DNA from: Poseidonibacter antarcticus
GTDB lineage: Bacteria; Campylobacterota; Campylobacteria; Campylobacterales; Arcobacteraceae
Reading direction: 5' to 3'
Length of the DNA: 52,307 nt
NCBI RefSeq assembly: GCF_003667345.1
Contig: NZ_RCWF01000016.1
Span: forward strand, 1 to 52,307
Below the pieces are notes generated by a model. It made no database searches. It saw only the letters and a list, made by a program, of their open reading frames with translations, and was not told the DNA's origin. The position numbers and the translations under genes were made by a program. Shown here one piece after another: positions 7,938 to 41,096 of the stretch. The first letter of the stretch is position 1; each line of letters opens with the position of its first letter.

Positions 7938-8210
7938 TAAATTATTAGGAGAATATAATGGAAGATAAAAAAGATAATCAAATTAAAATTGAAGCAGCAG
8001 AAATAGATATAAAAGTTAGTCAATTAGGTAAAAAACTATGTAAAGGTTTAGGATAAGAATATGTTGAATTTACTATTTAAAACAACTGCATATTATGTTA
8101 TTTGGCAAAAATTTAAAAAACAAATTCTTCTTATTTCATTTTCAGTTGTTTTAATTGGTTTTATTGGAATGATTTATGATGATTTATTTGATGTATTAAA
8201 AGTTACAGAT
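7845..8210 (+). repeat. Right copy of the duplicated small-gene segment
   Basis: Counterpart of 71-624. Here the outer genes are intact and the middle gene carries the 186-bp in-frame deletion. Confidence 0.8.
7958..8056 (+). CDS. 32-aa deletion derivative of the FtsZ-like protein
   Basis: The frame encodes the first 21 residues and the last 11 residues (QLGKKLCKGLG) of the 94-aa protein at 178-462. The intervening 62 codons, including the whole GGGGCN loop, are missing in frame. The deletion ends fall in a TCA trinucleotide present at both borders. The ribosome binding site TTAGGAGAATATA is intact. Whether the peptide is made or matters is unknown. Confidence 0.5.
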   Translation: MEDKKDNQIKIEAAEIDIKVSQLGKKLCKGLG

Positions 8211-11075: not shown

Positions 11076-12578
11076 ATGAGTCAAGAAATAAATAAAGAAA
11101 TAAGCTTTGGAAATATAAACATAGTTTCAACAGCAGAAGTAATAAAAATAAGAGATACTGAACAGTCAATTATTAATTGGATGATACTTTCATTTGATAA
11201 CTATAAATATATAAAAGAACATCTTACTTTTAAAGATTTTACTTTTAAAACTCATTCTATAATTTTTGAATATATAAACAGAAGTGAAGATAAATTTTTA
11301 GAAATGATTGATTCTAATAAGTTTAATAATGCACTATTAAGTGCTTTTATTGAAAGAAGTGCCTATGTATTAGGAAGTAAAAATATTGTAAAAGAAGAAT
11401 CTGTTTTAAATATACTTTCAAAAGCACCAAGTATTAATATTGATGAAGATATAAATTTTATTTTATTTTATGCAATGGAAAAAAAATATGCAATAGAAAA
11501 TAAAAAAAGTGAGAATCATATTGCTTTATTTACATTTGATGATTTAATTTCTAGATCAACTGCTAAATTTATTGATAATAGATTAGTTGAAGTAGAAACA
11601 AGTTATATAGAAAGTATTCCCTCTGAGTTATGTGATACTGCAATTGCTACATTTGAATCATTAATGGAACAGATTAATTTACAAAACTCTGATATAGAAG
11701 TTAATATATCCGATGATGTGATTAATTCAATACCCCATATATATTTTGAGATTAAAAAAGATATTAAGATTAAAAAAGACAAAGAACAAAAAGAGCAAGA
11801 AGCATTTAGAACTTTATATAAATGGGCAGATAAATATAACTTAAGTAAAGAAGAATTTCCAAGAGAACCTTTTGATCTTTTAGCACTAAAAATATTAGTT
11901 TTAGATCATAAAAAAATAAAAGAGATACCCAAAGAATTAGTTTTATTAAAAAAATTAGAATATATAGATTTAAGTTTTAATAAAATCACTTCTCTTCCTG
12001 AAGAATTTACGGAGCTTAAAAGACTTAAATTTTTAGTTCTAAAAGGAAATAATATCACTTCTCTTCCAAAGGATATCGATAAATTAAATCAATTGATATA
12101 TCTTTGTTTTTGTATGAATGCTATAAAAGAAATTCCTAATAAATTATATAAATTAAATCAATTAGCAAACCTTTGTATGCATGACAATAAGTTAACTTTT
12201 ATTTCTGAAGACATAAATAAGTTAAATAAGTTAAGAAAAGTATCTTTTTCAAACAACTATATACAAACTCTTCCTAATACAATTGATACATTAAAGAATT
12301 TAGAAAGATTAGAGTTTGAAAATAATCATATTAAAAAGATAGATTTTCATATTTTAAAATTATCAAAATTAAATCATATTGCTTTTGATGATGAATTATT
12401 GGAACCTATATTAGAAAATAAAGATTCAGTATTAAATGTAAATACAATCAACCTAAGTGAATCAAAATTAAACAAAGATTCTGAATTTATTAAAAATTTA
12501 TCCTTTGAAATCCAAGATACACAATGGGTTGAAAAAGAAGACAAGAGAGAAAATGGATGTGTTTTTTTATCAAATTGA
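11076..12578 (+). CDS. DnaB-N-like / leucine-rich-repeat protein
   Basis: 500 aa. Residues ~25-75 (TEQSIINWMILSFDNYKYIKEHLTFKDFTFKTHSIIFEYI) resemble the N-terminal domain of replicative helicase DnaB (E.SVLGALL...L...DFY...H..IF.AI). No helicase domain follows. Residues ~240-460 are leucine-rich repeats of the ~23-residue SLP.....L..L..L.L..N type, about seven units. The extreme C-terminus W..KEDKRENGCVFLSN matches the NGC-(I/V)-(F/L)-L ending of the paralogue at 29254. The gene is 4 bases downstream of the PBP gene and presumably co-transcribed. A cytoplasmic protein-recognition role is inferred. Confidence 0.7.
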   Translation: MSQEINKEISFGNINIVSTAEVIKIRDTEQSIINWMILSFDNYKYIKEHLTFKDFTFKTHSIIFEYINRSEDKFLEMIDSNKFNNALLSAFIERSAYVLGSKNIVKEESVLNILSKAPSINIDEDINFILFYAMEKKYAIENKKSENHIALFTFDDLISRSTAKFIDNRLVEVETSYIESIPSELCDTAIATFESLMEQINLQNSDIEVNISDDVINSIPHIYFEIKKDIKIKKDKEQKEQEAFRTLYKWADKYNLSKEEFPREPFDLLALKILVLDHKKIKEIPKELVLLKKLEYIDLSFNKITSLPEEFTELKRLKFLVLKGNNITSLPKDIDKLNQLIYLCFCMNAIKEIPNKLYKLNQLANLCMHDNKLTFISEDINKLNKLRKVSFSNNYIQTLPNTIDTLKNLERLEFENNHIKKIDFHILKLSKLNHIAFDDELLEPILENKDSVLNVNTINLSESKLNKDSEFIKNLSFEIQDTQWVEKEDKRENGCVFLSN

Positions 12579-14412: not shown

Positions 14413-14445
14413 AGTTTAACTTATAAGTGGGACATATTTTGACTA
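14413..14445 (-). promoter_or_regulatory. Island promoter motif for the 41-aa protein
   Basis: Gene-oriented: TAGTCAAAATATGTCCC (14429-14445), 10 bases, TAAACT (14413-14418). The motif includes the stop codon of the upstream receiver-HEPN gene. Confidence 0.7.
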
Positions 14446-16722
14446 GTTATATTCTTTTATCGTTTCAATCATTAATAATTTTGTATTAAACAACTCTTTA
14501 AGTTGCTGTGGTTTAATATGTACATCTTGTATATTTGAGTGTAGATAATTATTTCTATTTCTTATCATATTTTCAATATTTAAAGTATTTTTGCATCCTA
14601 GTTTTGTAAAAAGTTCTTCCAGCTTATCGTTTAAGCTAGTGGAATTTACATTAGTATTATCCCAAAACCTATCTGATTCATATCTCTGTTCTTTTATAAA
14701 GATACTATTGATTGCTTCAAAACTACTAATAATTGATAATAAGGCATATATGAATCTGTTGTCTAATTTACTATCAAGTATATCAAACACATATTGTGCT
14801 TCATTGTGAATTTTTATAGCAAACTTTATATAGTTTTTCTTTGATATATTGAATTTATGAAATATTTTACAATCAATCTCATCTTTTGGTAATGTGAAAT
14901 TTATATCTAGAATATTAATTACCTTTTGAGTTGTAGAATAAATCTCTATTAAGTATTTTCTTTCTAATCCTTCATCTACTAATCTTACAAACTTATTGAT
15001 ATTTTCCACTGTACTTATACTATTATCATCTGGATGTTCTTTTTTAATATATCCTAGTATCTTTTTTTCATACAGTTTTTCTAATATGGTACTTTTAGAA
15101 GTAGCTGTGAGCATTATCACTTGGATACCTGCATTTATTTCATGGATTTTTTCTAGTATTTTTATTCCTGTAAAACTATCTATATCTTTTTCATTATCAT
15201 GGTCATTTTTTGAAAGTCTTAAATCTAGTACTACAACATCTGGATTATACTCTTTTACTTTTTTTTGTATTTGCATATAAAGATTAAAAAGGGTTTTGTC
15301 TTTGTATTCATATTCAAAAGACTCAAACTCTAATCCATCTTTTTGAAGAGCAGCTTGTAAAATATCACTCCATCCTTTATCCCACTCATCATCTATAAGT
15401 AAAACTTTTCCATTTTTGCTAGGCTTTTTTATGCTTATATCTATCTGTTTATCTTTTTGGGCATAGTTTGCTTTGAGATATTTAAAATAAAGTGTATTTT
15501 CTATTTCTTCTTTATTTACATTTATTACTGCATTTTTTTGAATATTTAAAAACTCTGCCCATCTACTTATACTCCATTTATTAGCTATATCGTGAGTTCC
15601 TGAAGTGTCTTTTGGTGGGTTTACTTGGATTTTGTTTAAAAACTTATTATTGTATTTTTCTTCTGATAAGTTTTTTACATCAAGTTGTTGATATTTTTCT
15701 ATCTCTTCTTTTGTATTTTTACATAGATAAACATTTGGGGTAAATAGTATATTTGCCATATCATCAAATTTACAAAGCTGTTCAGTACTAAAATCACTCA
15801 CTATAACTATAGGAATATATCTTTTTATTCCAAGTTCACTAGAAAGTCTAATATGATAAGCAACTCTAAGACCTAAAAGTTCAAGATAGTTTGAAGAAAG
15901 ATTATCTTTGATAAAAATCATTTCAAAATCTTTCTCTTTTATCTCTAATAACATCTCGCTAATATACTTATCAATATCATTAGTGCTATTAAACTTTTCT
16001 ATACAATCAAACAGTTCAAAATCACAAATATTGTCATGGTGTATTATCAAAGAGTTGTTTTTATTAGCTTGTTTATCTTCAATCAAAAAGTAAGACTCTA
16101 AACTTTGTTTATAATTCTCTATCTCTTCAAGCGTCTTTTCATTGAGTGTATGAAACTGATAATTTACCTTGTTGATATTTCCATCTATTGTAAAATCGCT
16201 TGGGTTTATATTATAATTTTGGATATCAAATAAAAAAAGATTTACTTTTTCTAACACATTTGCTACTATATTTTCTTTCCAATGCTCACCATAACAAAGC
16301 ATCATAATATCATCATCTCTACTTCTTACAGCATCTAAAAACAGTGATAAATTTTTACTATAAAATGTTTTGGAGTTGAGCTCAAGATATTCAAACTCGC
16401 TTGTATCATAAAAGTTTGCAGATATCCCTCCTGAGAAGAATATAAGTGTTTTTTGTTCTTTTTTACAATACTCTTTGAGTCTAGTTACAATGATACTATT
16501 GCTATCATTATTTTCTTCTAGTTGTACTGATTTATGACAAATGATAATATCGTATTGAGATAGATTAAAACTATTATGGATCATCTCATTTGCAAGTTGA
16601 TAAAAATCATCTAAGATTATATTATCAAGTATATTTTTATATTGTTCAAAATCAAAGCTTAACTCGTTTTTAAAAAGCTCTTGTCTTTTGTATCTATCTT
16701 CTATTAGGAGTATTTTTTTCAT
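14443..16722 (-). CDS. Pseudo-receiver / receiver / HEPN protein (cluster A)
   Basis: 759 aa. Residues 1-~165: receiver-like fold starting LLIEDR, but the phosphoacceptor position reads CHKS (H63) and the later strand reads LIFFSGG, so it is degenerate. ~260-335: a conserved alpha/beta segment (IFIKDNLSSNYLELLGL..AYHIRLS). ~369-390: PPKDTSGTHDIANKWSI. 438-565: a canonical receiver with D444/D445, phosphoacceptor D500 in VVLDLRL, T539 and K560. 600-759: helical HEPN domain with R723-NNYL-H728. Receivers switch by aspartyl phosphorylation; HEPN Rx4H domains are usually metal-independent RNases. I infer a phosphorylation-gated RNase effector. The gene is the last large gene after the kinase-like protein and MNT gene, and starts inside the HepT-like stub (ATGA overlap). 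Confidence 0.78.
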   Translation of the reverse strand: MKKILLIEDRYKRQELFKNELSFDFEQYKNILDNIILDDFYQLANEMIHNSFNLSQYDIIICHKSVQLEENNDSNSIIVTRLKEYCKKEQKTLIFFSGGISANFYDTSEFEYLELNSKTFYSKNLSLFLDAVRSRDDDIMMLCYGEHWKENIVANVLEKVNLFLFDIQNYNINPSDFTIDGNINKVNYQFHTLNEKTLEEIENYKQSLESYFLIEDKQANKNNSLIIHHDNICDFELFDCIEKFNSTNDIDKYISEMLLEIKEKDFEMIFIKDNLSSNYLELLGLRVAYHIRLSSELGIKRYIPIVIVSDFSTEQLCKFDDMANILFTPNVYLCKNTKEEIEKYQQLDVKNLSEEKYNNKFLNKIQVNPPKDTSGTHDIANKWSISRWAEFLNIQKNAVINVNKEEIENTLYFKYLKANYAQKDKQIDISIKKPSKNGKVLLIDDEWDKGWSDILQAALQKDGLEFESFEYEYKDKTLFNLYMQIQKKVKEYNPDVVVLDLRLSKNDHDNEKDIDSFTGIKILEKIHEINAGIQVIMLTATSKSTILEKLYEKKILGYIKKEHPDDNSISTVENINKFVRLVDEGLERKYLIEIYSTTQKVINILDINFTLPKDEIDCKIFHKFNISKKNYIKFAIKIHNEAQYVFDILDSKLDNRFIYALLSIISSFEAINSIFIKEQRYESDRFWDNTNVNSTSLNDKLEELFTKLGCKNTLNIENMIRNRNNYLHSNIQDVHIKPQQLKELFNTKLLMIETIKEYN

Positions 16723-16838
16723 ATTTTCTTTTTATTCTCAAGTGCTTTTGTGATACTTCCAGTATTTTGAACTATTTGTTCAATATACTCTATTTTTTCA
16801 ATAATTAAATAGATTTTACTGATAGATTCTTTAGACAT
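16719..16838 (-). CDS. 39-aa HepT-like N-terminal stub
   Basis: A 39-codon frame (start 16838, stop 16719) overlaps the nucleotidyltransferase stop by 8 bases and the receiver-HEPN start by 4. Its sequence (YLIIEKIEYIEQIVQNTGSI) looks like the first helix of HepT/DUF86 HEPN toxins, which normally follow an MNT gene directly and are ~110-140 aa. It lacks the catalytic Rx4-6H region. I read it as the remaining N-terminus of a HepT gene whose rest was replaced by the receiver-HEPN gene. It may alternatively serve only to couple translation. Confidence 0.45.
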   Translation of the reverse strand: MSKESISKIYLIIEKIEYIEQIVQNTGSITKALENKKKI

Positions 16839-17148
16839 AAATTGCTCTATCTATTATAAATTTTTTTGCAGTTTTACCCATTCCTGAACTATCTGCAATA
16901 TCTACAGGTCTTTGAAAATATTCACTTAGTTCTTGCTTTATCTCTTCTAGTCTTGAGATTGCTTTAAAACCATATTTCATTGCAAAATCAGGTGTAGCTT
17001 CTACTAAAATATCTATATCACTATTTTCATCCGCTTCATCTCGTGAGTATGAACCAAAAAGTCCTTTTATATAAAAGCCTTCATTAGAATAGTTATTTTT
17101 TATCGTTTGAAGTTTTTCTAATATTTCACTTTTTTGTAAAATTGACAT
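16831..17148 (-). CDS. MntA-type minimal nucleotidyltransferase
   Basis: 105 aa. It has GSYSR (32-36), the acidic pair D44-I-D46 and the third acidic residue in VDIAD (D83), all of the polymerase-beta nucleotidyltransferase signature. MntA antitoxins neutralise HepT-type HEPN RNases by AMP transfer onto a tyrosine near the active site. Here the expected HepT is a stub and the next full gene has a HEPN domain, so the MNT may act on that protein. The order kinase-like, MNT, stub, receiver-HEPN with overlaps suggests one operon. Confidence 0.85.
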   Translation of the reverse strand: MSILQKSEILEKLQTIKNNYSNEGFYIKGLFGSYSRDEADENSDIDILVEATPDFAMKYGFKAISRLEEIKQELSEYFQRPVDIADSSGMGKTAKKFIIDRAIYV

Positions 17149-17187
17149 AGTAGTACCTTTAAATCGTATTGTTTTATTATACCAATT

Positions 17188-19662
17188 TTACTTATAAAAT
17201 CTCAAAATATGAGTAAATCCTTTTGGTTTTTCTTCTATTTCTATTATATCTTTGACATTGTTACTATATAAAAAGTTCACTCGAAAGTTTGTATCCTCGT
17301 ATCTCGATTCAATGCTATAATCACAAAGATTTTGAAGAGATGAAACTATATCAGCTATATCTCCTGCTTCTTTTGATCTTTGAAGAAGTTCATCAGCACT
17401 TCTACTACTTTTTGAGTCTATATGGGAGATTTTTATTTCTATTGATCTATCTTCTAGCTCTTTTGTAGTTACTTCTATATCTTTTAACTCTTCCCTTTTT
17501 TTAATCTCATCAAATATCTTACTAATAGCTTGAGAGAATTTAGATGTATCTGTATAAAACTGTCTATTTGATAGTTTTGCACTTGATAGGTCAAGATTGA
17601 TATTTTGAGATTTGAATATAGTTTCAAGATTGTTAAAATCAGCTCTTAGTTCTATCTCTTGTTTAAAAAGATTGATAATATCTCCAAAAGTTGATAAGTG
17701 CTTTCTAGGTGGAAGCATCACAGGTTTAGGAAGCTTAAAATCAAAAGGATTTTTCCCACTATCACAATGCTCTTTTAGTCCATCTAAGCTTGACCAACCT
17801 ATATTTATTTTAGCTTTACTACACCAGTTATATTCACTTGATGGCTCTTTTTCCATCAAAAAACAGTTTACTTTTTCATACAGATTTGGGCTAAGTATTT
17901 CAAGTTCAGTTTTCATACTCTCAAATTGTTTTTTAACCTGTTTCATATACCCATCAAAATTTCCATACTCTTTTTGTAACTCACCGAAATCCCATGTATG
18001 AGTTGTGTATTTGATTGGTTTATCTATAGTGAAGTTTGATAAAATTTTTACTAAATTTTGAGGAGTATTATTTTTAACTATATCAATATCATTTTTAATA
18101 TCTGTATTTAATGCTAAGTCATATGCAGTCATTTCACTTTTAACATTAATATCTGCACCTCTTTCAAGTAATGTCTTTACAAACATTCTGTTGCCTTCAA
18201 AAGAGTACTTCATAAGTGCAGTCATTCCCATATTATTTTTAGCATTTATATCTGTGCCATTATCTAAGAGAAGGTTAATTATTCTAATTGGTTTTATTAA
18301 ATCATGATTGTAATCTTCTTCAATTTTTTCATGTATTTCATCCCAGCAATCATTAGTATAATCAATGTATTGAAGGTCTACTTTTATATTCATAATCACA
18401 TTATTACCAAGCTTATCTTTATGATTTACATCAGCATCATTTTTTATTAAAATTTTTGCCACTTCAAAACCATTAGTTCTTTCTGTCGTATTCATTAAAA
18501 TACTTTTTCCTTTTTGATTAATAAAATTAACATCTGCTCCATTTTTAATAAGTAAAGAGACAATATTTAAGTTTACATCCGCTAAAAATTCACTTTCAAG
18601 ACCAGATTTTCTATAGAAAATATCTTCTTCAATCCTAAGTGAACAGGCTGACATCAATGGACTATCAAGGTTTAGATCAGCTCCATTTTGTATGAAATAA
18701 TTAATACAATTGAATATTTCATATTCATCTATTGTTCTTGCATTGCTTTTAGAACATACTATTGATAAAGGACTCATTTGAGATTTTTTAGCTTTCAACT
18801 TAGGGATATTAACATCGACTCCTGAATCAACAAGAAGTCTTATCATCTTAATATCTAGTTTTTTACATGCATTCACTAAATATTCTTCTTTTATAAAATT
18901 GCCTTTTTTAATAAGTAATTTTGCAAGTTTTAAATCACTTTCTTTACAAGCATAAAATAAAGCATTTCTATGTGAATCTGATATTTCTTTTGCTAAAAAT
19001 CTTTTTAAATTATCTATTCTGATTTTTTCATTAGGATTAAAACCATAATCAATTAACATTTTTATAATCTTAATATTTGAACACATCCCAAAAGAAGAAA
19101 CTTCAATATCTTTGATTTCTTTTATTTTAGTTTTAATGCCAAATTCACAATTAGGGTCTGTTTCCAGTATTTTTATTTTATATTTTGCTTTTTCAAATAT
19201 ATCAGCTCCTCTATCCTTTAATAATTTTATAGTATTTATATTATTCCCAACTACTGCAAACATAAAAGCAGTTAAACCTTGTTTTTTTGTTTGCACATTA
19301 ATATTACAACCTCTATCAAGTAATAATTTAACAATTTCATTATTACCAATTAAAGAAGCTATCATAAGTGAAGTAGGAGCTGTTGTCTCATCTTTGATTT
19401 TTTTTCTATCACTTGATTCATCTTTGAATTTAATTTTTATTCCAGATGATCTAGAAATTGTTTTGCATCCTTTAGAGTATATGTCTATATTATTTTTAAT
19501 AAGCTCCTTTATAAAGCTTACTTCAATAGAAATTTTTTTAATATATAATTTTATTAAGATATCAGTTAGTGAAATTTTAGATAAATCACCACCTTTTGAT
19601 AAAAATTTATTTAGTTCTTTAATATTTTGTGTTTTTACAATGTTTTTAAATTTAGTATTCAT
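17188..19662 (-). CDS. Ankyrin-repeat / degenerate kinase-like protein (cluster A)
   Basis: 824 aa. Residues ~90-530 hold about ten ankyrin-type repeats (for example NNEIVKLLLDRGCNINVQ). Residues 533-824 form a module shared with 33613-35067 and 35064-37991: (P)Q(N/S)LVKIL(S/T)NFT.DKP.K(Y/F)TTH.WDFGEL, SPNLYEKV, GWSS(L/M)DGLK, a strand-helix FYTDT.K....I..IF, and the end GFTHILRFY. Its order (helical hairpin, then D....L..VI..IF, alternating strands, final FTHILRF) is like a histidine kinase DHp/HATPase core, but I see no N-box asparagine or DxGxG glycines. I call it a degenerate kinase-like or adaptor module; the conserved TTH histidine is a candidate phospho-site. It is the first gene of its operon. 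Confidence 0.65.
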   Translation of the reverse strand: MNTKFKNIVKTQNIKELNKFLSKGGDLSKISLTDILIKLYIKKISIEVSFIKELIKNNIDIYSKGCKTISRSSGIKIKFKDESSDRKKIKDETTAPTSLMIASLIGNNEIVKLLLDRGCNINVQTKKQGLTAFMFAVVGNNINTIKLLKDRGADIFEKAKYKIKILETDPNCEFGIKTKIKEIKDIEVSSFGMCSNIKIIKMLIDYGFNPNEKIRIDNLKRFLAKEISDSHRNALFYACKESDLKLAKLLIKKGNFIKEEYLVNACKKLDIKMIRLLVDSGVDVNIPKLKAKKSQMSPLSIVCSKSNARTIDEYEIFNCINYFIQNGADLNLDSPLMSACSLRIEEDIFYRKSGLESEFLADVNLNIVSLLIKNGADVNFINQKGKSILMNTTERTNGFEVAKILIKNDADVNHKDKLGNNVIMNIKVDLQYIDYTNDCWDEIHEKIEEDYNHDLIKPIRIINLLLDNGTDINAKNNMGMTALMKYSFEGNRMFVKTLLERGADINVKSEMTAYDLALNTDIKNDIDIVKNNTPQNLVKILSNFTIDKPIKYTTHTWDFGELQKEYGNFDGYMKQVKKQFESMKTELEILSPNLYEKVNCFLMEKEPSSEYNWCSKAKINIGWSSLDGLKEHCDSGKNPFDFKLPKPVMLPPRKHLSTFGDIINLFKQEIELRADFNNLETIFKSQNINLDLSSAKLSNRQFYTDTSKFSQAISKIFDEIKKREELKDIEVTTKELEDRSIEIKISHIDSKSSRSADELLQRSKEAGDIADIVSSLQNLCDYSIESRYEDTNFRVNFLYSNNVKDIIEIEEKPKGFTHILRFYK

Positions 19663-29253: not shown

Positions 29254-30669
29254 TTAAAGTAGGATACATCCATTACCTAAATAATCTTTCTCTTTCATCC
29301 AACTTTCATTATCAAATTCTAATCCAAGATTAATAATCTCTTCATCAAGCTCATTATATTTACTATGAATGATATTAATAGTGTTAATATTTATAAGCTT
29401 ATGGAAGTTTTTTATGAACCATGGTAATAATTTATCATCAAAACATATTTTTTCTAAGTTTTCTAAATGAAGATATTCTAAAGATTTTTCATTAATTAGA
29501 GTGTTTTCAATATCTATCTCTTTTAAAGATTTCATATTTGATATAGATATAGGAAACTCCTTTATTGCGTTATTTGATATTGAAAGAGTTTTTAATTTTG
29601 TTAAACGATCTATATCTTCTGGTAAAGATTTTAGTTTATTACTATGTAAACAAAGTAATTCAAGCTCTTTTAATTCATATACACTTTTTGGAAACTCTTC
29701 TATTTTATTATTACAAAGTATAAGAGTATTACATTTTGAAATACCTATATCTTCTGGTAATAATTTTATTTTATTATTTATAAAATTAAATGAGAAGCTA
29801 TTTTTTTTAATTTCAAAAAGCTCTTTTGGAATCTCTTCTAATTCAAAGTCTTCAAAGTTTTCAAATACATTACATTGACGAACAAATCCTTTTTCTTTTG
29901 GAAATATCATCTGTTCTATATTATATTTATCTGCCCATTTTATTAGTTTTTCTATTTGCTCTATTTTGTCTATATTCTTTTTAAAAGAAATTCCGTATAT
30001 ATCTTCAAGGTCATCTTCATTTACTATTAAATTTACTTCATAATTGTTTGTTTGAACATGTGATAGTATTTTTTTATTTGTATATTCAAAAGTATCGCAC
30101 AGCTCATTTGGAAGATGGAAAATATAAGTAGTTTTTATATTTATAACAATTCCATTAAAATATGTTGCAACATAAGAACCATACTCATCTTCAATCTTTA
30201 CATCTAAGTAATTCTTTTTATCATCAATATTATGAGATATTATCTCTTGTCGTTTTTTAGAGAAATCTAAAAGTTCAAAAATATCAAGATCAACTTTCTT
30301 ATCTACTTCATCAGGTATAATAAATCCGATATCATCTAAATGCATAGTTAAATTACTAAAAATATTTTTTGTTGTATTAGGGTAAATATGATAAATATCA
30401 AATATATTTAAAGCAATTTTAGTTATCTTTGAATCATCACCAAAAAATTCATCCTCTTGTGTATAGAATACCAAATATTCATAGATTTTTTTATTTACAA
30501 TAAAAGTAAAATCATCAGCTTTGATTTGGCTTGTAATTTTTTCAAATAACTCTTTTGACTTCTACATACAAGCTATAATTCTAAATTTAACATCTCTTAA
30601 ATGCATAATATCTACATATGATTCATATTGCCAATTTTGTGATTCGATTGTGATTGTTTTTTCTTCCAT
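29254..30669 (-). pseudogene. LRR protein gene with one in-frame amber codon
   Basis: The frame opens at 30669 (MEEKTITIESQNW), 45 bases below an island promoter. It has a TAG as codon 36 (30562-30564) and then continues uninterrupted to 29254. An internal ATG at 30474 gives a 406-aa protein. Without the stop the product is 471 aa, paralogous to the 500-aa LRR protein: a DnaB-N-like start (SKELFEKITSQIKADDFTFIVNKKIYEYL), WADKYN linker, ~six leucine-rich repeats, and the same C-terminal end (ESWMKEKDYLGNGCILL). Single amber change, read-through or sequence error are all possible. Confidence 0.75.
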
Positions 30670-31342: not shown

Positions 31343-31375
31343 AGTATATCTTATATTTTAGACATATTTTGTCTC
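31343..31375 (-). promoter_or_regulatory. Island promoter motif for the 44-aa protein
   Basis: Gene-oriented: GAGACAAAATATGTCTA (31359-31375), 10 bases, TATACT (31343-31348). It overlaps the first base of the receiver-HEPN stop codon. Confidence 0.78.
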
Positions 31376-32961
31376 TATTTGTGATTAAACATATTTTGTA
31401 AGTTTTCTAAAACATTAGTTACATTATAAGTTCTAATTTTTGGTGGGTTATCTATTATTTGTATCATTTTTTCAAGTTTCTTAAACCATTTAACAATTTC
31501 TTTATCAGTGACAAGTATATTTCTTCTTGAGTGAAGATAATCATTTCTTTTGTCGATTAACTTTTTCATATCAAGATTATCCTTTGTACCAAATTTCTCA
31601 AATAGTTTAACAATTCTACATCTTAATGCATTATACTGGCAATCATATGGTTCTTTATCCCAAAATGTCATTTCTTTTTCATTTATAAATATACTTAATA
31701 TTGTTTCTAAACTACTTGCAATTGAAACCATTGCATAAATAAACTTATTCTGACTATTATTATCTAAAATATCAAAAATATTTTGTGTTTCTTTTTCTAA
31801 TTTAATCCAGAATGATTCATATTTTTCTATAGAAATATTGTATTTATTAAATATATCTTCATCTAGAATCATTTTTATATTCACAGTAATGTCATAAATA
31901 GATTTTAGATATTTTCTATCTAGCCCCTTATCAATCAAACTTACTAACTTGTTAATATTCTCTATTGTATCAATATTTTTATCATCAGGATGTTCTTTTT
32001 TAATATATCCTAATATCTTTTTCTCATAAAGTCTTTCCAATATAGTACTCTTACTTGTTGCAGTAAGCATTATCACCTGAATACCTGCATTTATTTGATG
32101 TATTTTTTGAAGTATTCTAATTCCAGTATAATCATCTATATTTTCAGTTTCATGATCTCCTTGGGCAAGTCTTAGATCCAAAATTACTACATCAGGATTA
32201 AAACTTACAACTTTTTTTTGTATTTGCATCAAAAGATTAAATTTTGTTTTATCTTTAAAATCATAATCAAAATAATCAAAGTTTATACTCTCACTTTTAG
32301 TTATTGAAGTTAAGACATCAGCCCAACCTTTATTCCATTCGTCATCAATGAGTAAAACTTTACCTTCTTTAGTAGCAGATAGAATTTCAATATTTTCATG
32401 TACTTTGTTATTATTTAAAACTTTTAGATATTTAAAATAAAGTGTATTTTCAATCTGGTTTTTATTTTTATTAATTACATCACTTTCTATAGATAGAAGG
32501 TTTGACCATTTATATATACTCCATTTATTTGCAATATCATGATTTCCTGAGGTATCTTTAGGGCGTTCAATTATAATTTTATCTAAAAACTCATTTTTAA
32601 AATTAGTATTATTTAATTTCATATATTTACTTGGTAAATTATTTACAAATATACTTTTAGTAAAAAGTATTTTAGCAAATGAAGTTATTTTATTTAATGT
32701 AAAACCATCCAAGTCACTTATTATAACAATTGGTACAAATTTTTTATATCCTAATTCTGTAGAAAGACGTATATGATAAGCTAATAATAAACCTGTAAAC
32801 TCCATATAGTTTGTTGTCAAACGGTCTTTTATATAAATGATATCAAATTCTTTTTCTTTTATCTCATTCAGAATATTCTTAATTTTTGAAAACTTTAGAT
32901 TTACATCATAAGTATCTATTTTAGATACATTATTATTATGTATAAGTAGTTTTTTATTCAT
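31375..32961 (-). CDS. Receiver-HEPN protein (cluster B)
   Basis: 528 aa, equivalent to residues ~225-759 of the cluster A protein. 35-105: IIYIKDRLTTNYMEFTGL..AYHIRLS segment. 132-150: ERPKDTSGNHDIANKWSI. 200-326: canonical receiver with D206/D207, phosphoacceptor D262 (VILDLRL), T300 and K321. 355-500: HEPN with R472-NDYL-H477. It starts 8 bases inside the 220-aa gene, so the fused protein of cluster A is here two coupled genes. Predicted RNase output of the system (inference). Confidence 0.78.
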   Translation of the reverse strand: MNKKLLIHNNNVSKIDTYDVNLKFSKIKNILNEIKEKEFDIIYIKDRLTTNYMEFTGLLLAYHIRLSTELGYKKFVPIVIISDLDGFTLNKITSFAKILFTKSIFVNNLPSKYMKLNNTNFKNEFLDKIIIERPKDTSGNHDIANKWSIYKWSNLLSIESDVINKNKNQIENTLYFKYLKVLNNNKVHENIEILSATKEGKVLLIDDEWNKGWADVLTSITKSESINFDYFDYDFKDKTKFNLLMQIQKKVVSFNPDVVILDLRLAQGDHETENIDDYTGIRILQKIHQINAGIQVIMLTATSKSTILERLYEKKILGYIKKEHPDDKNIDTIENINKLVSLIDKGLDRKYLKSIYDITVNIKMILDEDIFNKYNISIEKYESFWIKLEKETQNIFDILDNNSQNKFIYAMVSIASSLETILSIFINEKEMTFWDKEPYDCQYNALRCRIVKLFEKFGTKDNLDMKKLIDKRNDYLHSRRNILVTDKEIVKWFKKLEKMIQIIDNPPKIRTYNVTNVLENLQNMFNHK

Positions 32962-33616
32962 CTGCTAACTCTTTGACAACATTTATTATGCTATCTCTTA
33001 GTTTAAGTATCTCTGTTAAATAAACCCAGTTGTTTTCTATCTTCATTTCATAAAACTTTTTGTCAAGACCAAGTATTAAATTAATTTTAGTTTTATTAGC
33101 AAAATCATCATAATCTATGTCTTCATCAGCATTATTATCTATAAAGATATTCACATTTTCCAATATATTTAATATAATATTTAACTTCCATTGTTTACCA
33201 AAACTTAATATCCTAATATTAATACTATCCTGTCTTAAATCTTCCAAAAATAATATTAAATTTTTACTATAAAAATCCTCTGAACTCAAATGTAATAATT
33301 CATAATCCTCACGGCTATATGATGTTTCATTTCCACCTGAAAACAGTACTAAAGACTTTTTATTTTTTTTACAATAACTCTGAAGTTTTCCTAAAATCAC
33401 TCTATCTTCATTTATAAAAATAGATTGATGTGCAATAACTACTTCATATATGTTTAAATCAAAATCATCTTTTTTAATCTTTAACATAAAGTTTGTAAAA
33501 TCTGAATCTATCTTATTATCTAAAACATCACTATATGTTTCTAAATCTATATTTGCTGACTCTAAAAAATCTTTTTGTCGCTTCGGTCTATCTTCTATTA
33601 ACAATACTTTTTTCAT
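32954..33616 (-). CDS. Stand-alone pseudo-receiver (cluster B)
   Basis: 220 aa, matching residues 1-~215 of the cluster A fusion: LLIEDR start, the phosphoacceptor aspartate replaced by histidine (VVIAHQS, H63, same position as in cluster A), LVLFSGG, and SEDFYSKNLILFLEDLR. The retained histidine in two diverged copies suggests it matters. The gene is coupled by ATGA to the kinase-like gene upstream and overlaps the receiver-HEPN gene downstream. Confidence 0.7.
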   Translation of the reverse strand: MKKVLLIEDRPKRQKDFLESANIDLETYSDVLDNKIDSDFTNFMLKIKKDDFDLNIYEVVIAHQSIFINEDRVILGKLQSYCKKNKKSLVLFSGGNETSYSREDYELLHLSSEDFYSKNLILFLEDLRQDSINIRILSFGKQWKLNIILNILENVNIFIDNNADEDIDYDDFANKTKINLILGLDKKFYEMKIENNWVYLTEILKLRDSIINVVKELADE

Positions 33617-34442
33617 TTGTTATAAAACCTTAATATATGTGTAAAACCGTTTGGTTTATAATTTAATTCTTCTATATTTTGAGAAGTATTACTTGTTAAA
33701 TAATTTACTCTATAGTTTTTATCTTCATAACTACTCTCAATACTCCAGTCACAAAGGTTATTTAAATTTTCTTTGATACCAGCAAAATCTCCATTCTGTA
33801 CTTCTTCTAGCATAACATAAGCATCACTTCCTGCTTGTGCTCCTAATTGCATAATTTTTAATTCAATAAATTCTTTTGTTGAATCTCCTAATACCTCTAC
33901 TATTATATTTGTATATTCATGACGTTCCACCTCATGCATTTGTGAAAAAATAGTTTTTATTACATTAATTAATTTCTCAGTATCAGTATAAAATGTAACA
34001 CCTTTTAATTTTATCAATTCTACTTTATATTTTCTACCTAATTTTTTTCTCTCTTGAATAAAAATATCTTCAAGCATTGTATCTTTACGAATTTCAATCT
34101 TTCGCTTGAAGACATTTACTATTTCTTTAAAATCTTTAAAATCAAAAGGTTTATTTCCTGCATTACACCAATTTTTTAATCCATCCATTGAGGACCAACC
34201 TAAAGCTTCTGTTGAATCTGTTTCCCATAAGAAATTATAAACTTCTTTATATAGATTAGGAGATAGTGTTTTTAAATCATCTTTAATCGCTAACCATTGT
34301 GTTTTAACTTCAGCCATATATCCATCAAAATTTTTATAGTCACTTTTTGACAATTCTCCAAAATCCCAATCATGTGTTGTAAATTTCATTGGTTTATCTT
34401 CTGTGAAGTTTGTAAGTATTTTTACTAATGATTGAGGATTGT
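33608..34442. repeat. 835-bp direct repeat, copy 1
   Basis: Covers the kinase-like module of the 484-aa gene and its stop. It is identical to 35059-35893 except for two bases in the SNTS(QN/ET)IEEL codons, with no gaps (constant offset 1451). Confidence 0.9.
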
Positions 34443-35067
34443 TTGAAAGAAAAATATTTTTTTCTTTTTTTAAATTTGGTTGTAGTTTTCTTACATAAAT
34501 CAATGCAAAATATACTAACAACATAAAAATTAAACTTCCTTGACTTCTCATATAAATTTGATTTGATATATACCAGTCAAATGTTTCATCAATATTTGAT
34601 TCTTCTATATGTTTTATTATATCTGTAATCGAAAATGTTATCGATCGAAATACACTCATTGGAATATTAGGAGTAGAATGTTTTGCAACATAAAAATTAT
34701 AATCATATTCTTTTAAAGTTCTTAAATACTCTGGTATAATTACTAATTCTCTATTTTGATGCCTTGGCTTTGTTTTATTATAATTTATTAATAATTCATT
34801 GTCTTTAATAACCTTAACAATTCCATCTGGTTTTATATAATTTAAGTCTTTTTTTATTTCTTCAATACATAAAATATTATCAGTATGGTTATCTAAACAT
34901 TTTTTCAAGCCAAGACTTAAATTCTTAGTCAATAATTTTATTTCAATAGAATCAGAAATTTTTTTAGAATTGTAATATGAATAATTACGAATAAAAGATA
35001 ATATTAAGACTACCATTAAAAATATCATCCAAAATACAAACTTATTGTTTAAATTTATTTTTTTCAT
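33613..35067 (-). CDS. Membrane sensor / degenerate kinase-like protein (cluster B)
   Basis: 484 aa. Transmembrane helices at ~11-26 (FVFWMIFLMVVLILSF) and ~178-193 (LIFMLLVYFALIYVRK) enclose a ~150-residue periplasmic domain with two cysteines (C57, C67), the layout of a classical sensor kinase. The cytoplasmic ~275 residues are the same module as in the ankyrin proteins, here virtually identical to that of the neighbouring 975-aa protein. It lacks recognisable N-box and glycine motifs. Coupled to both neighbours by ATGA. It probably brings an envelope signal to the same receiver. Confidence 0.68.
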   Translation of the reverse strand: MKKINLNNKFVFWMIFLMVVLILSFIRNYSYYNSKKISDSIEIKLLTKNLSLGLKKCLDNHTDNILCIEEIKKDLNYIKPDGIVKVIKDNELLINYNKTKPRHQNRELVIIPEYLRTLKEYDYNFYVAKHSTPNIPMSVFRSITFSITDIIKHIEESNIDETFDWYISNQIYMRSQGSLIFMLLVYFALIYVRKLQPNLKKEKNIFLSNNPQSLVKILTNFTEDKPMKFTTHDWDFGELSKSDYKNFDGYMAEVKTQWLAIKDDLKTLSPNLYKEVYNFLWETDSTEALGWSSMDGLKNWCNAGNKPFDFKDFKEIVNVFKRKIEIRKDTMLEDIFIQERKKLGRKYKVELIKLKGVTFYTDTEKLINVIKTIFSQMHEVERHEYTNIIVEVLGDSTKEFIELKIMQLGAQAGSDAYVMLEEVQNGDFAGIKENLNNLCDWSIESSYEDKNYRVNYLTSNTSQNIEELNYKPNGFTHILRFYNK

Positions 35068-35893
35068 TTGTTATAAAACCTTAATATATGTGTAAAACCG
35101 TTTGGTTTATAATTTAATTCTTCTATAGTTTCAGAAGTATTACTTGTTAAATAATTTACTCTATAGTTTTTATCTTCATAACTACTCTCAATACTCCAGT
35201 CACAAAGGTTATTTAAATTTTCTTTGATACCAGCAAAATCTCCATTCTGTACTTCTTCTAGCATAACATAAGCATCACTTCCTGCTTGTGCTCCTAATTG
35301 CATAATTTTTAATTCAATAAATTCTTTTGTTGAATCTCCTAATACCTCTACTATTATATTTGTATATTCATGACGTTCCACCTCATGCATTTGTGAAAAA
35401 ATAGTTTTTATTACATTAATTAATTTCTCAGTATCAGTATAAAATGTAACACCTTTTAATTTTATCAATTCTACTTTATATTTTCTACCTAATTTTTTTC
35501 TCTCTTGAATAAAAATATCTTCAAGCATTGTATCTTTACGAATTTCAATCTTTCGCTTGAAGACATTTACTATTTCTTTAAAATCTTTAAAATCAAAAGG
35601 TTTATTTCCTGCATTACACCAATTTTTTAATCCATCCATTGAGGACCAACCTAAAGCTTCTGTTGAATCTGTTTCCCATAAGAAATTATAAACTTCTTTA
35701 TATAGATTAGGAGATAGTGTTTTTAAATCATCTTTAATCGCTAACCATTGTGTTTTAACTTCAGCCATATATCCATCAAAATTTTTATAGTCACTTTTTG
35801 ACAATTCTCCAAAATCCCAATCATGTGTTGTAAATTTCATTGGTTTATCTTCTGTGAAGTTTGTAAGTATTTTTACTAATGATTGAGGATTGT
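35059..35893. repeat. 835-bp direct repeat, copy 2
   Basis: Partner of 33608-34442. It encodes the C-terminal module of the ankyrin protein. Near-identity ends abruptly at the border with the ankyrin region, pointing to recent duplication or gene conversion. Confidence 0.9.
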
Positions 35894-37991
35894 ATTTGTT
35901 GACAACATACTTAATTATCAATGACCTAATATCATTATTTGCAAAATCTTTGGCTCTTCTACCTTCTTTATTCTTAAGTTGCTTTTTTGCACCTTTATCT
36001 AATAGTAACTTTATTAAATTACTATTATTTTCTTTTGCAGCAAACATAAGAGGTGTTATTCCATCATTAGTTTCAGTATTGATATCATTAGATTGTCTAA
36101 TTACTTCATAAATAAAATCTGATGGATATTTATTAATAAATAAATCATTTATGTTAATTCCTTTTAAATCAAAATTATATTCAATTAATTTTTGTAATCC
36201 AACAACTGATTTTTCATCAATGGAATCTTTTAAGAATGGAGAGAAATTTATTATTTCAATCAATCTTAATATAGAATCTTTTAGTTCATCATTAGAGTTT
36301 ACTAAATCTTGTTTTAACATTTCATGTGATGTTAATTCTGAATCCTTTTGTTTATTTTTAAAGTTTACTAAATCTTGTTTTAACTTAGAGGTTTTTTTTT
36401 CAACTCTTGGATTATTAATATTAGCTCCAGAAAGTTCAAGTAAATCCTCAATTTCTCCGTATCCTTTCAAATGAGCTACATTGTACAATGATAAACTATT
36501 TATTTGATCTTTTATATAAATATCATTATCAATAAGTAAATGAATAATTTCAAAATGCAATTCTAAACTATTTATTTGACCATTTATTTGGTAATTTATA
36601 TTATAATTTGCATCAGCACCATTATCAATAAGTAATTTTGTAATTTCTAAATTATTAACTAATATGGCATAAAGAAGACAATAATTCATCAATTTTTTAG
36701 AGTTATCATTAACTATGTATTTTATAAGAAGATTAATTAATTTAATGTCTTTAATTCTTATAACTTCAATACATGATTTTAAATCAACTCCTATGCCTTT
36801 TTGCAATAGGTGTTCAAGAGTATTATAGTTATTACTTTTTATTAAGTTAAAGAGAATAGTTGAACTATCTACAGTATTCAAGTATTCATTTATAGTATCA
36901 ATATATTGCAACAAGAACTCAATAAGTTCGATATCATGTAGTTTACTTGCAGTAATAAGATATGATGCAATATTTTCTTTATAATTACTTATTTCAATAT
37001 TTTTTAATAAAAAAACAAGTGTATTAAATTTAATATCAAAAGTATTAAAAATTAAGATTCCTTTAATTTTCTCACTATAATTTATATTCATATTATTTAT
37101 TTTTGGAATAACAAAATTTTTATTTCTAAATAGAAACATACTGAAAGCTGCATCAATTATTTCCATACCAATTTCTGCACCATATTTAATAAGTAACTCA
37201 CAAACTTGAAGTTTATTTTTCTCAAAATTTTTAATCATGATTTCAAATAGAACTTCCGGTATCTTATTATCAAAAACTAATCTAAAAATTTTGGAGGAGA
37301 TGAGTAAAAAGAGGAAAAAGGACTTGCCTTTTATTGATATATTAGGATTGGCACCATTTTCTAATAATAACTTTACCATCTTAATATTTCCAAATATACA
37401 AGCAAAAGCAAATAAAGAGAAGGTATTATTAATTTTACTATTGAGATCTGCTCCATTATCAATGAGATATTGAATTAAATCTAAAATATCTTGTTCAGAG
37501 ATATCATCATAATAACTAGATACATATTCAATATTATTAAGATATGACTTATCACTTAAGATAAGTAAGTAAGAAAAGAGTGAAAATCCGTCTTCGGCCT
37601 GATAGTTTATATCAGCTCCTTTTTCTACAAAATATTTAATAAGTTCAAAATTATTATTTTCTGCATCTAAAGAACATAGAAGAGGTGTTGAGTCATCTTT
37701 TGTTATATTATTAACATCACCTCCATATTCAACCAAAAGTTTAACAATATCAAAATCACCTTTTAGTGTCGAAACTATTAATGCCGAATATCCGTCCTCG
37801 TCTATTTTATTAATATCTACTTCATTTTCTATTAAAAATTTTAAGAAGTTAACATTAATATAATCTCTATCCTCATAAATTTTGTCAAATAAAGAAACTA
37901 AGTTAATATCAGTTATTTTCATGCCATTATTTGTAAGTTCTTCTATTTTTTTTATACTTTGTTCTTTTAATATTTTATAGACATCATTCAT
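35064..37991 (-). CDS. Large ankyrin-repeat / degenerate kinase-like protein (cluster B)
   Basis: 975 aa. Residues 1-~695 are ankyrin repeats of variable quality (clear ones near 66-95, 105-134 and 640-690), with a charged insertion near 520-560 containing a KQDLVN(S/F) repeat. Residues ~700-975 are the shared kinase-like module (TTHDWDFGEL, GWSSMDGLK, FYTDTEKLINVIKTIF, GFTHILRFYNK). It is first gene of a four-gene overlapping operon (ankyrin sensor, membrane sensor, pseudo-receiver, receiver-HEPN). A cytoplasmic sensing role for the ankyrin part is inferred. Confidence 0.68.
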   Translation of the reverse strand: MNDVYKILKEQSIKKIEELTNNGMKITDINLVSLFDKIYEDRDYINVNFLKFLIENEVDINKIDEDGYSALIVSTLKGDFDIVKLLVEYGGDVNNITKDDSTPLLCSLDAENNNFELIKYFVEKGADINYQAEDGFSLFSYLLILSDKSYLNNIEYVSSYYDDISEQDILDLIQYLIDNGADLNSKINNTFSLFAFACIFGNIKMVKLLLENGANPNISIKGKSFFLFLLISSKIFRLVFDNKIPEVLFEIMIKNFEKNKLQVCELLIKYGAEIGMEIIDAAFSMFLFRNKNFVIPKINNMNINYSEKIKGILIFNTFDIKFNTLVFLLKNIEISNYKENIASYLITASKLHDIELIEFLLQYIDTINEYLNTVDSSTILFNLIKSNNYNTLEHLLQKGIGVDLKSCIEVIRIKDIKLINLLIKYIVNDNSKKLMNYCLLYAILVNNLEITKLLIDNGADANYNINYQINGQINSLELHFEIIHLLIDNDIYIKDQINSLSLYNVAHLKGYGEIEDLLELSGANINNPRVEKKTSKLKQDLVNFKNKQKDSELTSHEMLKQDLVNSNDELKDSILRLIEIINFSPFLKDSIDEKSVVGLQKLIEYNFDLKGININDLFINKYPSDFIYEVIRQSNDINTETNDGITPLMFAAKENNSNLIKLLLDKGAKKQLKNKEGRRAKDFANNDIRSLIIKYVVNKYNPQSLVKILTNFTEDKPMKFTTHDWDFGELSKSDYKNFDGYMAEVKTQWLAIKDDLKTLSPNLYKEVYNFLWETDSTEALGWSSMDGLKNWCNAGNKPFDFKDFKEIVNVFKRKIEIRKDTMLEDIFIQERKKLGRKYKVELIKLKGVTFYTDTEKLINVIKTIFSQMHEVERHEYTNIIVEVLGDSTKEFIELKIMQLGAQAGSDAYVMLEEVQNGDFAGIKENLNNLCDWSIESSYEDKNYRVNYLTSNTSETIEELNYKPNGFTHILRFYNK

Positions 37992-38083: not shown

Positions 38084-38761
38084 TTAAAAATTAAACCCTA
38101 GTTGCACAGGATCTTTTTTATATACTATTTCAATAAAGTCTGCTTTTGTTTTCATAGCTTTATCAAGTAAATCTTGCTTAATTAAAGAAACAAGAATTGC
38201 ACATGTCTTTGCTTGACAGTTTATAGATCTCTTTGGATTAAATTCAATATCGGTAAAAGTATCAAATTTTATAAGTTCTTCAATAATCTCTGGGTAATTT
38301 GAATAAAGAGTTTTTATATAAAGATAATCATAAAATGCTGTTTTTGGCTCATTCTCCCAAAAGACACCTTCATATTCAAAACCAATAATTTCTCCTGAGT
38401 TTCTAATTCTTATGTCCTTTTTAGCTTTTATACTCTCAACAAAATATAAGTCTTCATATTGAATATTTCCTTCAAATACTTTACTACCTTGAAAAGCACA
38501 CTCTAATGATATTTTTTTATCAAAATCAAAATTAACTAAAAGATTAAAGGCACTTAAACTCCATCCTAATTTATTATCTGATTTAGTAGAAACTTCTAAT
38601 ATATTTCCATAACCATTTTCTCTTGCATTCTCATGTAAAGATTGAATAGATTTCAGTTTTTGAGAAACGGCAAAACCATTATAAAATTTAAAATCTATAT
38701 TTATTTCTCTAAAAAAAGATTTTTTAGTTAATGTTGTTGTAAAAATTGGTCTAGTTGCCAT
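38084..38761 (-). CDS. Probable DarT-associated partner protein
   Basis: 225 aa. Recognisable elements are GNILEVSTKSDNKLGWSLSAFNL, SLECAFQGSKVFEGN, EGVFWENEPKTAFYDYLYIKTL and an internal C-x-x-x-x-C (CQAKTC). I believe this is the DUF6977 type seen next to DarT-like genes, but that assignment is from memory. It is not a macrodomain DarG. It overlaps the DarT-like gene by 11 bases, so an antitoxin or co-factor role is inferred. Confidence 0.55.
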   Translation of the reverse strand: MATRPIFTTTLTKKSFFREINIDFKFYNGFAVSQKLKSIQSLHENARENGYGNILEVSTKSDNKLGWSLSAFNLLVNFDFDKKISLECAFQGSKVFEGNIQYEDLYFVESIKAKKDIRIRNSGEIIGFEYEGVFWENEPKTAFYDYLYIKTLYSNYPEIIEELIKFDTFTDIEFNPKRSINCQAKTCAILVSLIKQDLLDKAMKTKADFIEIVYKKDPVQLGFNF

Positions 38762-39260
38762 ATGTAATTCCTTTTATTTTATTTGTTTGAATATTATTTA
38801 AAGCCATTATCTCAGCTTTTCTTGCTTCAATTCTTGTCCAAAAGTCTTTTTCATAAACCAAGGTCTGAAAATCTATAAATTCTAATATATTGTTTAATTT
38901 AAATAAATTAGAATTATTTTGATTTGCAACTTTATCACAAAATATAGTATCTTCATCAAATAGAATAGAAACATCTAATTCTATCCATACAGGTTTTATA
39001 ATACTATTTCTTTTTTTTGCTGTATGATACATAGGGTGGTCTTTTATAAAAGAAAGATGAACATATTTATCAAGCCCTCTTCTTATATCTAAAGTATGAC
39101 TAAGAGACTCAGCTCCAAATCTTGAAACATCAATGCTTTGCTTTATAATATTTGATAAAGACTGAATACCATATTCTTCAATTGATCTTAAATTTGATTC
39201 ATCTGTGAAATGATAAATTGAATTAATTCCGTAATTTGATAATGTTTCTCTTATACTCAT
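38751..39260 (-). CDS. darT: DarT-like DNA ADP-ribosyltransferase toxin
   Basis: 169 aa from the ATG at 39260 (AAGGATAAGAAG upstream); the in-frame ATG at 39314 lies inside the promoter motif and is unlikely. DarT features: SIYHFTDESNLRSIEEYGI (NAD-binding start), SRFGAESLSHTLDIRRGLDKYVHLSFIKDHPMYH, and the C-terminal catalytic glutamate in RKAEIMALNNI (E150). DarT enzymes modify thymidine in single-stranded DNA and act in TA and phage defence. It is first in a two-gene unit. Confidence 0.75.
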   Translation of the reverse strand: MSIRETLSNYGINSIYHFTDESNLRSIEEYGIQSLSNIIKQSIDVSRFGAESLSHTLDIRRGLDKYVHLSFIKDHPMYHTAKKRNSIIKPVWIELDVSILFDEDTIFCDKVANQNNSNLFKLNNILEFIDFQTLVYEKDFWTRIEARKAEIMALNNIQTNKIKGITYGN

Positions 39261-39289
39261 CTTCTTATCCTTAATGTTTTGATAGGATA

Positions 39290-39322
39290 AGTTTAGTATT
39301 AAATATAGACACATATTGTCTA
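39290..39322 (-). promoter_or_regulatory. Island promoter motif for the DarT-like unit
   Basis: Gene-oriented: TAGACAATATGTGTCTA (39306-39322), 10 bases, TAAACT (39290-39295). Palindrome arms extend to AAATATAGACA/TGTCTATATTT. This is the last copy I find before the recombinases. Confidence 0.83.
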
Positions 39323-39811: not shown

Positions 39812-40423
39812 TTAAAGTTTTAGTACTTTTTCTCCAAATTCTCTTAATTCACCATTAGGTCCAACATATCTATATAAAGTTGCTCTTGTGACTCCTAACT
39901 CAACTGCTAACTCTGTTGCACTAGTATCTCTATTTTTCATTGCGACTTGAGCAAGTCTAACTTGTGCTTTTGAAAGTTGAAATTTTCTACCACCTTTTCT
40001 TCCTCTTGCACGAGCAGCTTTTAATCCTGCAATGGTTCTCTCTCTTATTAATTCCCTCTCAAATTCAGCAAATGCTCCAAATATTGAAAATATCATCTTA
40101 CCAGCTGGAGTAGTTGTATCAATTGATGCACCTTCACCTGTTAAGACTTTAAATCCAATTTCTCTTTTATTTAGATTATCTATAGTTGATATGAGATGTT
40201 TTAAATTTCTTCCTAATCTATCTAATTTCCATACAACTAAAGTATCTCCTTTTCGAAGTGCTATTAAACAATTATCTAATCCTGGTCTATCCTCTTTAAC
40301 TCCAGAAATTTTATCTGTATAAATATTTTCATTTTTAATGCCTTCATTAACAAGAGCATCAATTTGTAAATCTAAAACTTGTGAATCATCTGCTTTTGAA
40401 ACTCTTCCATAACCAATCAACAT
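39812..40423 (-). CDS. Serine recombinase (resolvase/invertase family) 1
   Basis: 203 aa from the ATG at 40423 (AAAGGAAATGAA upstream). N-terminal catalytic domain MLIGYGRVSKADDSQ (catalytic serine S9), IYTDKISG, RPGLDNC, LVVWKLDRLGRNLKHLI, FSIFGAFAEFERELIRERT; C-terminal helix-turn-helix of Hin/Tn3-resolvase type (TSATELAVELGVTRATLYRYV). Probably the resolvase of a Tn3-like or invertible element. Divergent from the second recombinase. Confidence 0.93.
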   Translation of the reverse strand: MLIGYGRVSKADDSQVLDLQIDALVNEGIKNENIYTDKISGVKEDRPGLDNCLIALRKGDTLVVWKLDRLGRNLKHLISTIDNLNKREIGFKVLTGEGASIDTTTPAGKMIFSIFGAFAEFERELIRERTIAGLKAARARGRKGGRKFQLSKAQVRLAQVAMKNRDTSATELAVELGVTRATLYRYVGPNGELREFGEKVLKL

Positions 40424-40484
40424 TTCATTTCCTTTGTGTATATCAAACCACCATTTAAAATACACTTCTTATCAAAGGACAAAA
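40424..40484. promoter_or_regulatory. 61-bp intergenic region between divergent recombinases
   Basis: It contains inverted elements CCTTTG ... CAAAGG and GTGTAT ... ATACAC around the centre. These include both Shine-Dalgarno regions. It may double as a recombination (res-type) site; the dyad is all I can see. Confidence 0.4.
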
Positions 40485-41096
40485 ATGCTAATAGGATATG
40501 CTCGTGTTTCAAAATCAGATAGTTCACAAGTTTTAGACTTACAAATAGATGCACTTAAAAATGCTGGAGTAGATGAGAAAAATATCTATTCTGATAAAAT
40601 CTCTGGGATCAAAGAACAAAGACCTGGACTAGAAAATTGTCTAAAAGCTTTAAGGAAAGGTGATATACTATTTGTATGGAAACTTGATAGACTTGGAAGA
40701 AATTTAAAACATCTTATTGCTACCATAGAAGAGCTTGCTAAAAATGATATAGGATTTAAAGTTTTAAATGGTCAAGGGGTAGATATAGACACCACAACAC
40801 CTGCAGGAAAAATGATATTCTCAATATTTGGAGCATTAGCTGAATTTGAAAGAGAACTTATTCGAGAAAGAACAAAAGCAGGTATTGCTGCAGCACGAGC
40901 TAGAGGTAGAAGGGGTGGAAGAAAGTTTGGTTTATCTAAAGCACAAGTAAGACTTGCAGAAGCTTCAATGAAAAATAGAGATACGAGTGTTACTGATCTT
41001 TGTAAAGAACTCAATATCACAAGAGCAACTTTATATCAGTATATATCACCTACTGGAGAATTGAGAGAACATGCAATTAAGGTACTTGAGAAATAG
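40485..41096 (+). CDS. Serine recombinase (resolvase/invertase family) 2
   Basis: 203 aa from the ATG at 40485 (AAAGGAC upstream). The architecture is the same as recombinase 1 and it is a close paralogue: MLIGYARVSKSDSSQ (S9), FVWKLDRLGRNLKHLI, TTPAGKMIFSIFGALAEFERELIRERT, then a C-terminal helix-turn-helix (TSVTDLCKELNITRATLYQYI). Two non-identical divergent copies suggest two elements or an old inverted duplication. Confidence 0.93.
   Translation: MLIGYARVSKSDSSQVLDLQIDALKNAGVDEKNIYSDKISGIKEQRPGLENCLKALRKGDILFVWKLDRLGRNLKHLIATIEELAKNDIGFKVLNGQGVDIDTTTPAGKMIFSIFGALAEFERELIRERTKAGIAAARARGRRGGRKFGLSKAQVRLAEASMKNRDTSVTDLCKELNITRATLYQYISPTGELREHAIKVLEK

Follow-up and report, generated by a model that had tools for sequence, protein, structure and literature searches.

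The stretch of DNA analysed here (the window; 52,307 nt of contig NZ_RCWF01000016.1 of Poseidonibacter antarcticus, G+C 25%, from a genome of 2.9 Mb) carries a four-gene operon on its reverse strand. The first gene (35064..37991) encodes a 975-aa ankyrin-repeat protein (Ank_2, 3.5e-36) with a C-terminal HisKin-conflict domain (PF22561, 2.4e-51, residues 700-973) and is joined by a 4-nt overlap (ATGA) to the second gene (33613..35067), encoding a 484-aa membrane-sensor protein with the same domain at its C-terminus (PF22561, 5.8e-53, residues 209-482). In the latter protein, two hydrophobic segments flanking a predicted extracytoplasmic stretch were recognized by reading the sequence. The third gene (32954..33616), again with a 4-nt overlap with the membrane-sensor gene, encodes a 220-aa receiver-like protein (pseudo-receiver) for which there was no Pfam match above cut-off; its homologues come after the HisKin genes in related loci and form the N-terminus of fused versions. 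The last gene (31375..32961) encodes a 528-aa predicted effector comprising an iREC domain (PF22563, 4.6e-14), a canonical REC domain (PF00072, 4.2e-08) and a C-terminal helical domain with an R-N-x3-H motif. The operon is a HisKin-conflict/iREC-REC signalling system, of a type linked to biological conflict, and may serve in anti-phage defence.

Neighbours of the operon include DarT1/NADAR and Tmt- and DrmD-like genes. The DarT1-type toxin and NADAR antitoxin pair (38084-39314; PF22397 1.9e-80, PF14487 3.4e-15) lies 92 bp upstream of the ankyrin-HisKin gene on the same strand. Two serine recombinase genes with 73% protein identity are arranged head to head at 39812-40465 (-) and 40434-41096 (+); together they make up an inverted repeat 514 nt long (74%). 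Between 101-610 and 7881-8204, at a distance of about 7.6-7.8 kb, there are direct repeats of 142 nt (94%) and of 185 nt (87%).

The whole system is present in the window a second time, in diverged form, at 14443-19662, with the downstream part fused into one protein. This copy consists, all on the reverse strand, of a gene for an 824-aa ankyrin-HisKin protein (17188..19662; PF22561 2.7e-56), whose kinase part is 43% identical to that of the membrane-sensor gene, an MNT-type nucleotidyltransferase gene at the HisKin/REC junction (16831..17148; PF01909 1.6e-10) and a gene for a 759-aa fused pseudo-receiver, iREC, REC and HEPN-like protein (14443..16722; PF22563 3.2e-21, PF00072 5.8e-08) with an RNNYLH motif. 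At the DNA level, this third HisKin could be aligned to the module of the operon over 140 nt only, at 76%. The second copy is flanked by genes for two related leucine-rich-repeat proteins (11076-12578 (+) and 29254-30474 (-), 33% identical) with similar Cys-containing C-termini, NGCVFLSN and NGCILL.

Output module and predicted effector

The modules shared by the first two genes had been described as kinase-like in an earlier note made from the sequence alone, a description which holds for the fold and can now be narrowed to a named Pfam family. Both genes matched PF22561, entitled "Histidine Kinase domain observed in conflict contexts", over profile positions 3-303 of 303 with 180.9 and 175.6 bits (cut-off 27). 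In an AlphaFold2 model of the membrane-sensor protein made with 17 relatives, the kinase part was mostly above pLDDT 80, and the modelled module has the histidine kinase catalytic (CA) fold, its best match among solved histidine-kinase CA domains being 4u7o_B (Z 13.8, 133 residues aligned, 2.3 A). A solved-structure profile search with the HisKin alignment gave chance-level matches only. His232 and D362 are invariant in the alignment of the HisKin family, and no Asn, that of the N-box included, stands in the invariant or nearly invariant columns of this alignment, which was sequence- and not structure-based. In the model, His232 precedes the helical hairpin and lies outside it. By sequence alignment, therefore, the module shows neither the conserved N-box Asn nor the phospho-accepting His in the dimerization hairpin that mark active histidine kinases, so that it is referred to here as a kinase-fold module and phosphotransfer is uncertain.

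The iREC domain was above the cut-off of 27 in both downstream proteins of the window, with 52.8 bits in the 528-aa protein (31375-32961) and 75.9 bits in the fused protein (14443-16722). The REC domain of the 528-aa protein (PF00072, 33.8 bits, cut-off 30.2; Z 13.3 in a fold search) retains the acidic pair, the phospho-accepting Asp and the Lys of REC as D206, D207, D262 and K322, all invariant in 18 sequences. Further downstream, R472, N473 and H477 of the R-N-x3-H motif are invariant in 18/18 effector homologues and agree with the R-x4-6-H catalytic motif of HEPN ribonucleases, the effector C-terminus being mostly helical in the model (332 to 504). Weak matches were given by the HEPN_Apea profile in 4 of the 18 members (best E 0.015) and by the HepT 5yep profile to the effector C-terminus (E 0.25), and an hhalign profile comparison of this region with three HepT proteins was not significant. 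The fold search barely covered the C-terminus, the REC domain filling the list. On the invariant motif and the weak profile matches, the C-terminus is provisionally assigned as a HEPN-like ribonuclease domain with predicted nuclease activity.

Two near-identical blocks in adjacent genes

The two HisKin domains of the operon lie in 835-bp blocks at a fixed offset of 1451, both on the reverse strand. Copy 1 (33608..34442) covers the HisKin domain of the membrane-sensor gene, its stop codon and the start of the pseudo-receiver gene, and copy 2 (35059..35893) the HisKin domain of the ankyrin gene, its stop codon and the start of the membrane-sensor gene. The earlier note had reported two base differences between them, both non-synonymous and within 5 bases, and comparison at offset 1451 showed this to be exact, with the coordinates correct. 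The mismatches are at 33677/35128 and 33681/35132, leaving uninterrupted identical runs of 69 and 761 bp and a DNA divergence within the pair of 0.24%, and on the coding strand they change adjacent codons (CAA to GAA, Q/E, and AAT to ACT, N/T). The non-synonymous share (2/2) carries no statistical significance. If independent, two changes as close as 5 bases in a block of 835 would have a probability of about 1%, so that both may stem from one mutational event. In a scan of the whole window, this pair was the only repeat of at least 100 nt with more than 95% identity, and its near-identity is far beyond chance.

Identity begins at the opening N-P-Q-S of the PF22561 domain (first conserved residues N-P-Q), in agreement with the sharp border at the domain edge described earlier, and ends 5 nt past the stop codon, beyond the ATGA stop/start overlap, so that the block takes in the next gene's start codon and, before it, AAGG as a possible ribosome-binding site. 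Protein comparison of the ankyrin and membrane-sensor genes gave no match outside the module, bearing out the claim that their N-terminal parts are unrelated, and both block borders coincide with the limits of homology between the two genes. Since a homologous tract could not have reached further, the sharp borders need no special explanation and are the expected outcome of any homologous exchange here. The repeat spans the whole homologous block together with the stop/start overlap, and recombination between the copies would therefore excise the membrane sensor in frame; the 1451-bp membrane sensor and HisKin unit would be lost and a perfect ankyrin-HisKin-receiver operon left.

A duplication of one HisKin by the assembler could give a similar picture, given that the genome is a 55-contig draft and the 761-bp exact repeat is longer than short reads. 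However, each copy of the block is bordered on both sides by unique sequence, and the two differences sit no more than about 75 bp from the unique flanks downstream, a distance over which a single read can link a variant to the flank that belongs to it. If the flanks are single-copy, the pieces could otherwise be joined only as an ankyrin-HisKin-receiver operon and, apart from it, a 1451-bp circle. The two reading frames and the two ATGA junctions are intact, and an assembly artefact is considered very improbable.

Relatives in the Campylobacterota and origin of the pair

Scans of Campylobacterota genomes, about 1,300 in all with certain genomes counted more than once, gave 24 other usable loci, a few of which are broken or cut by contig ends (e.g. 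L071 and L072). In these relatives a single HisKin gene precedes the pseudo-receiver and iREC-REC genes, which are either fused or separate. The HisKin N-terminal partner is an ankyrin region in most, or else a membrane sensor, both of these, or a retron-type reverse transcriptase (RT). The ATGA overlap between HisKin and receiver genes is present in 11 of the 24 and is reused in the window between the two HisKin genes. A tandem HisKin pair was absent from all 24 related loci of other genomes and was seen only in the window, and no orthologous tandem pair was found in any strain or species covered by the scans; two HisKin loci also occur in genome G578, each on a different contig. A scan of named genomes yielded two relatives only. 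The full membrane-sensor-HisKin protein had no match among plasmids and a single one, distant (28%), in a faecal contig that is labelled as phage and unannotated, and viral contigs gave pattern matches without any confirmed relative.

Toxin-antitoxin-type genes occupy the HisKin/receiver junction in 6 of the 24 loci, in addition to the lone MNT gene at 16831-17148 of the window. These include MNT with HepT in three loci (L018:7122-7778, L027:1199-1874 and L047:8837-9512), an antitoxin-like gene in one (L048:9114-9323) and genes judged PIN-like by eye, without Pfam match, in two (L049:2719-3370 and L019:1451-1957). In three further loci (L024:2681-4786, L025:3437-5941 and L053:7539-9530) a retron-type RT is fused to HisKin-conflict and followed by pseudo-receiver and iREC-REC-HEPN-like genes. 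The nearest retron models to these RTs are the fused-effector types XI and XII, and the loci possibly represent a retron type not yet described. In neither the RT-containing loci nor the window did any Rfam ncRNA, retron msr for instance, reach the gathering score.

The N-terminus of the second gene, termed membrane/periplasmic in the earlier note, can be further specified as one member of a small sensor family. The sole other lone membrane-sensor-HisKin gene known is that of locus L017 (genome G090), whose sensor is 46-47% identical to the window sensor, with a linker of nearly the same length. Two other loci (L021 and L022) encode a single chain in which a membrane sensor, ankyrin repeats and one HisKin are combined, and in L051 a free-standing membrane-sensor homologue (15056-15718, 27.6%) lies about 4 kb from a separate ankyrin-HisKin gene.

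The kinase modules gave a different picture from the sensor. By tree path, the nearest other HisKin to the window pair is that of L067, on an ankyrin protein, at about 50% protein identity. Set against the divergence of 0.24% within the pair, this bears out the proposal that one output module was recently copied under two inputs, for which either one recent event or the ongoing gene conversion suggested in the earlier note may be responsible. An AU test rejected grouping of the window kinases with the L017 kinase, at modest strength (p 0.036 for 19 rows and p 0.035 for 26 rows). With a sensor related to that of L017 and a kinase that is not its sister, sensor and kinase appear to differ in history, which supports a kinase module not co-inherited with the membrane sensor and makes it more likely that a membrane-sensor-HisKin gene already present had its kinase block replaced than that the fusion was a fresh one. 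Two pre-existing architectures would then have had their kinase block lately copied or overwritten, probably in the direction from the ankyrin gene to the membrane-sensor gene. The HisKin block, the possible ribosome-binding site and the next start codon would have been copied or overwritten together by homologous recombination, either through gene conversion or through a crossover in the shared block that inserted the sensor and HisKin unit.

A fresh fusion would require that a free-standing sensor such as that of L051 entered the HisKin/receiver junction and gained a duplicate of the HisKin of the ankyrin gene. A sensor homologue of this kind does exist in L051, and the junction accepts other insertions, as seen for the toxin-antitoxin genes. 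However, sensor and HisKin are already fused in L017, the sensor being 47% identical and the linker of similar length, which indicates that fusion probably preceded the copying, and such an origin appears improbable. More weight, while still on the unlikely side, can be given to long-standing concerted evolution, in which an old tandem would have had its blocks kept identical by repeated conversion for the sake of shared receivers or mixed dimers. The reading frames are intact in both genes, the whole homologous block is identical except for two bases, and a comparable state has been reported for Campylobacter jejuni Tlp2/3/4 (PMC9769880). Against this, a tandem was present in none of the 24 related loci of other genomes, so that the pair looks young. 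Moreover, direct repeats so long and so spaced should readily be lost by recombination. On balance, it seems probable, with some reservation, that the operon feeds equivalent HisKin outputs from two sensors to a shared HEPN-like effector and that the block was recently copied by recombination.

Proposed signalling and relation to known systems

We infer a flow of signal from two sensors to a shared effector. The ankyrin protein would report a cytoplasmic signal and the membrane-anchored protein, through its extracytoplasmic domain, an envelope signal; the equivalent HisKin modules of both would probably drive the same receiver proteins, whose HEPN-like ribonuclease end, once released, would arrest the cell. 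Joint use of the two inputs is supported by the chains of L021 and L022, where both stand on one HisKin and thus form an established combination. Mixed ankyrin/membrane dimers are possible. A more speculative proposal, which we hold to be doubtful, is that the identical HisKin modules permit such dimers and let the effector read cytoplasmic and envelope signals together, and that recombination between the repeats excises the 1451-bp unit, with re-entry possible, making the sensor set switchable within a population.

The pair would represent sensor exchange caught in progress in a predicted bacterial immune-signalling family, a single operon combining one output with two inputs that are unrelated. 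Excision of the repeat, if it occurs, would offer a simple test of whether recombination of output modules is how such systems change what is sensed.

The domain families, and identical outputs under different inputs as in Tlp2/3/4, are already known; new is the tandem pair, in which a single HisKin-conflict operon has wholly unrelated inputs. Among the papers searched by Pfam name, none described HisKin-conflict or iREC by name. The window operon resembles other HisKin-conflict (PF22561)/iREC (PF22563) systems in its defining domains, all above cut-off, and in gene order, but has two near-identical modules where the other loci found have one HisKin. The retrons of types XI and XII, with an effector fused to the RT, are similar to L024, L025 and L053 in that the latter have an RT N-terminal to the HisKin. 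The C-terminal partner in types XI and XII is a protease or TIR, whereas in these three loci it is a HisKin, with separate iREC-REC-HEPN-like genes; the window genes, in contrast to these retrons, are without RT. In C. jejuni, Tlp2, Tlp3 and Tlp4 have identical signalling domains and sensory domains that are about 30% identical (PMC9769880), and extensive recombination among Tlps has been reported (PMC6433261). Like the window pair, they are paralogous sensors of the same phylum with a common output domain. However, Tlp2/3/4 are chemotaxis receptors with related dCache sensors, whereas the window pair joins wholly unrelated inputs in one operon and has as its output the kinase-fold module of a predicted defence system.
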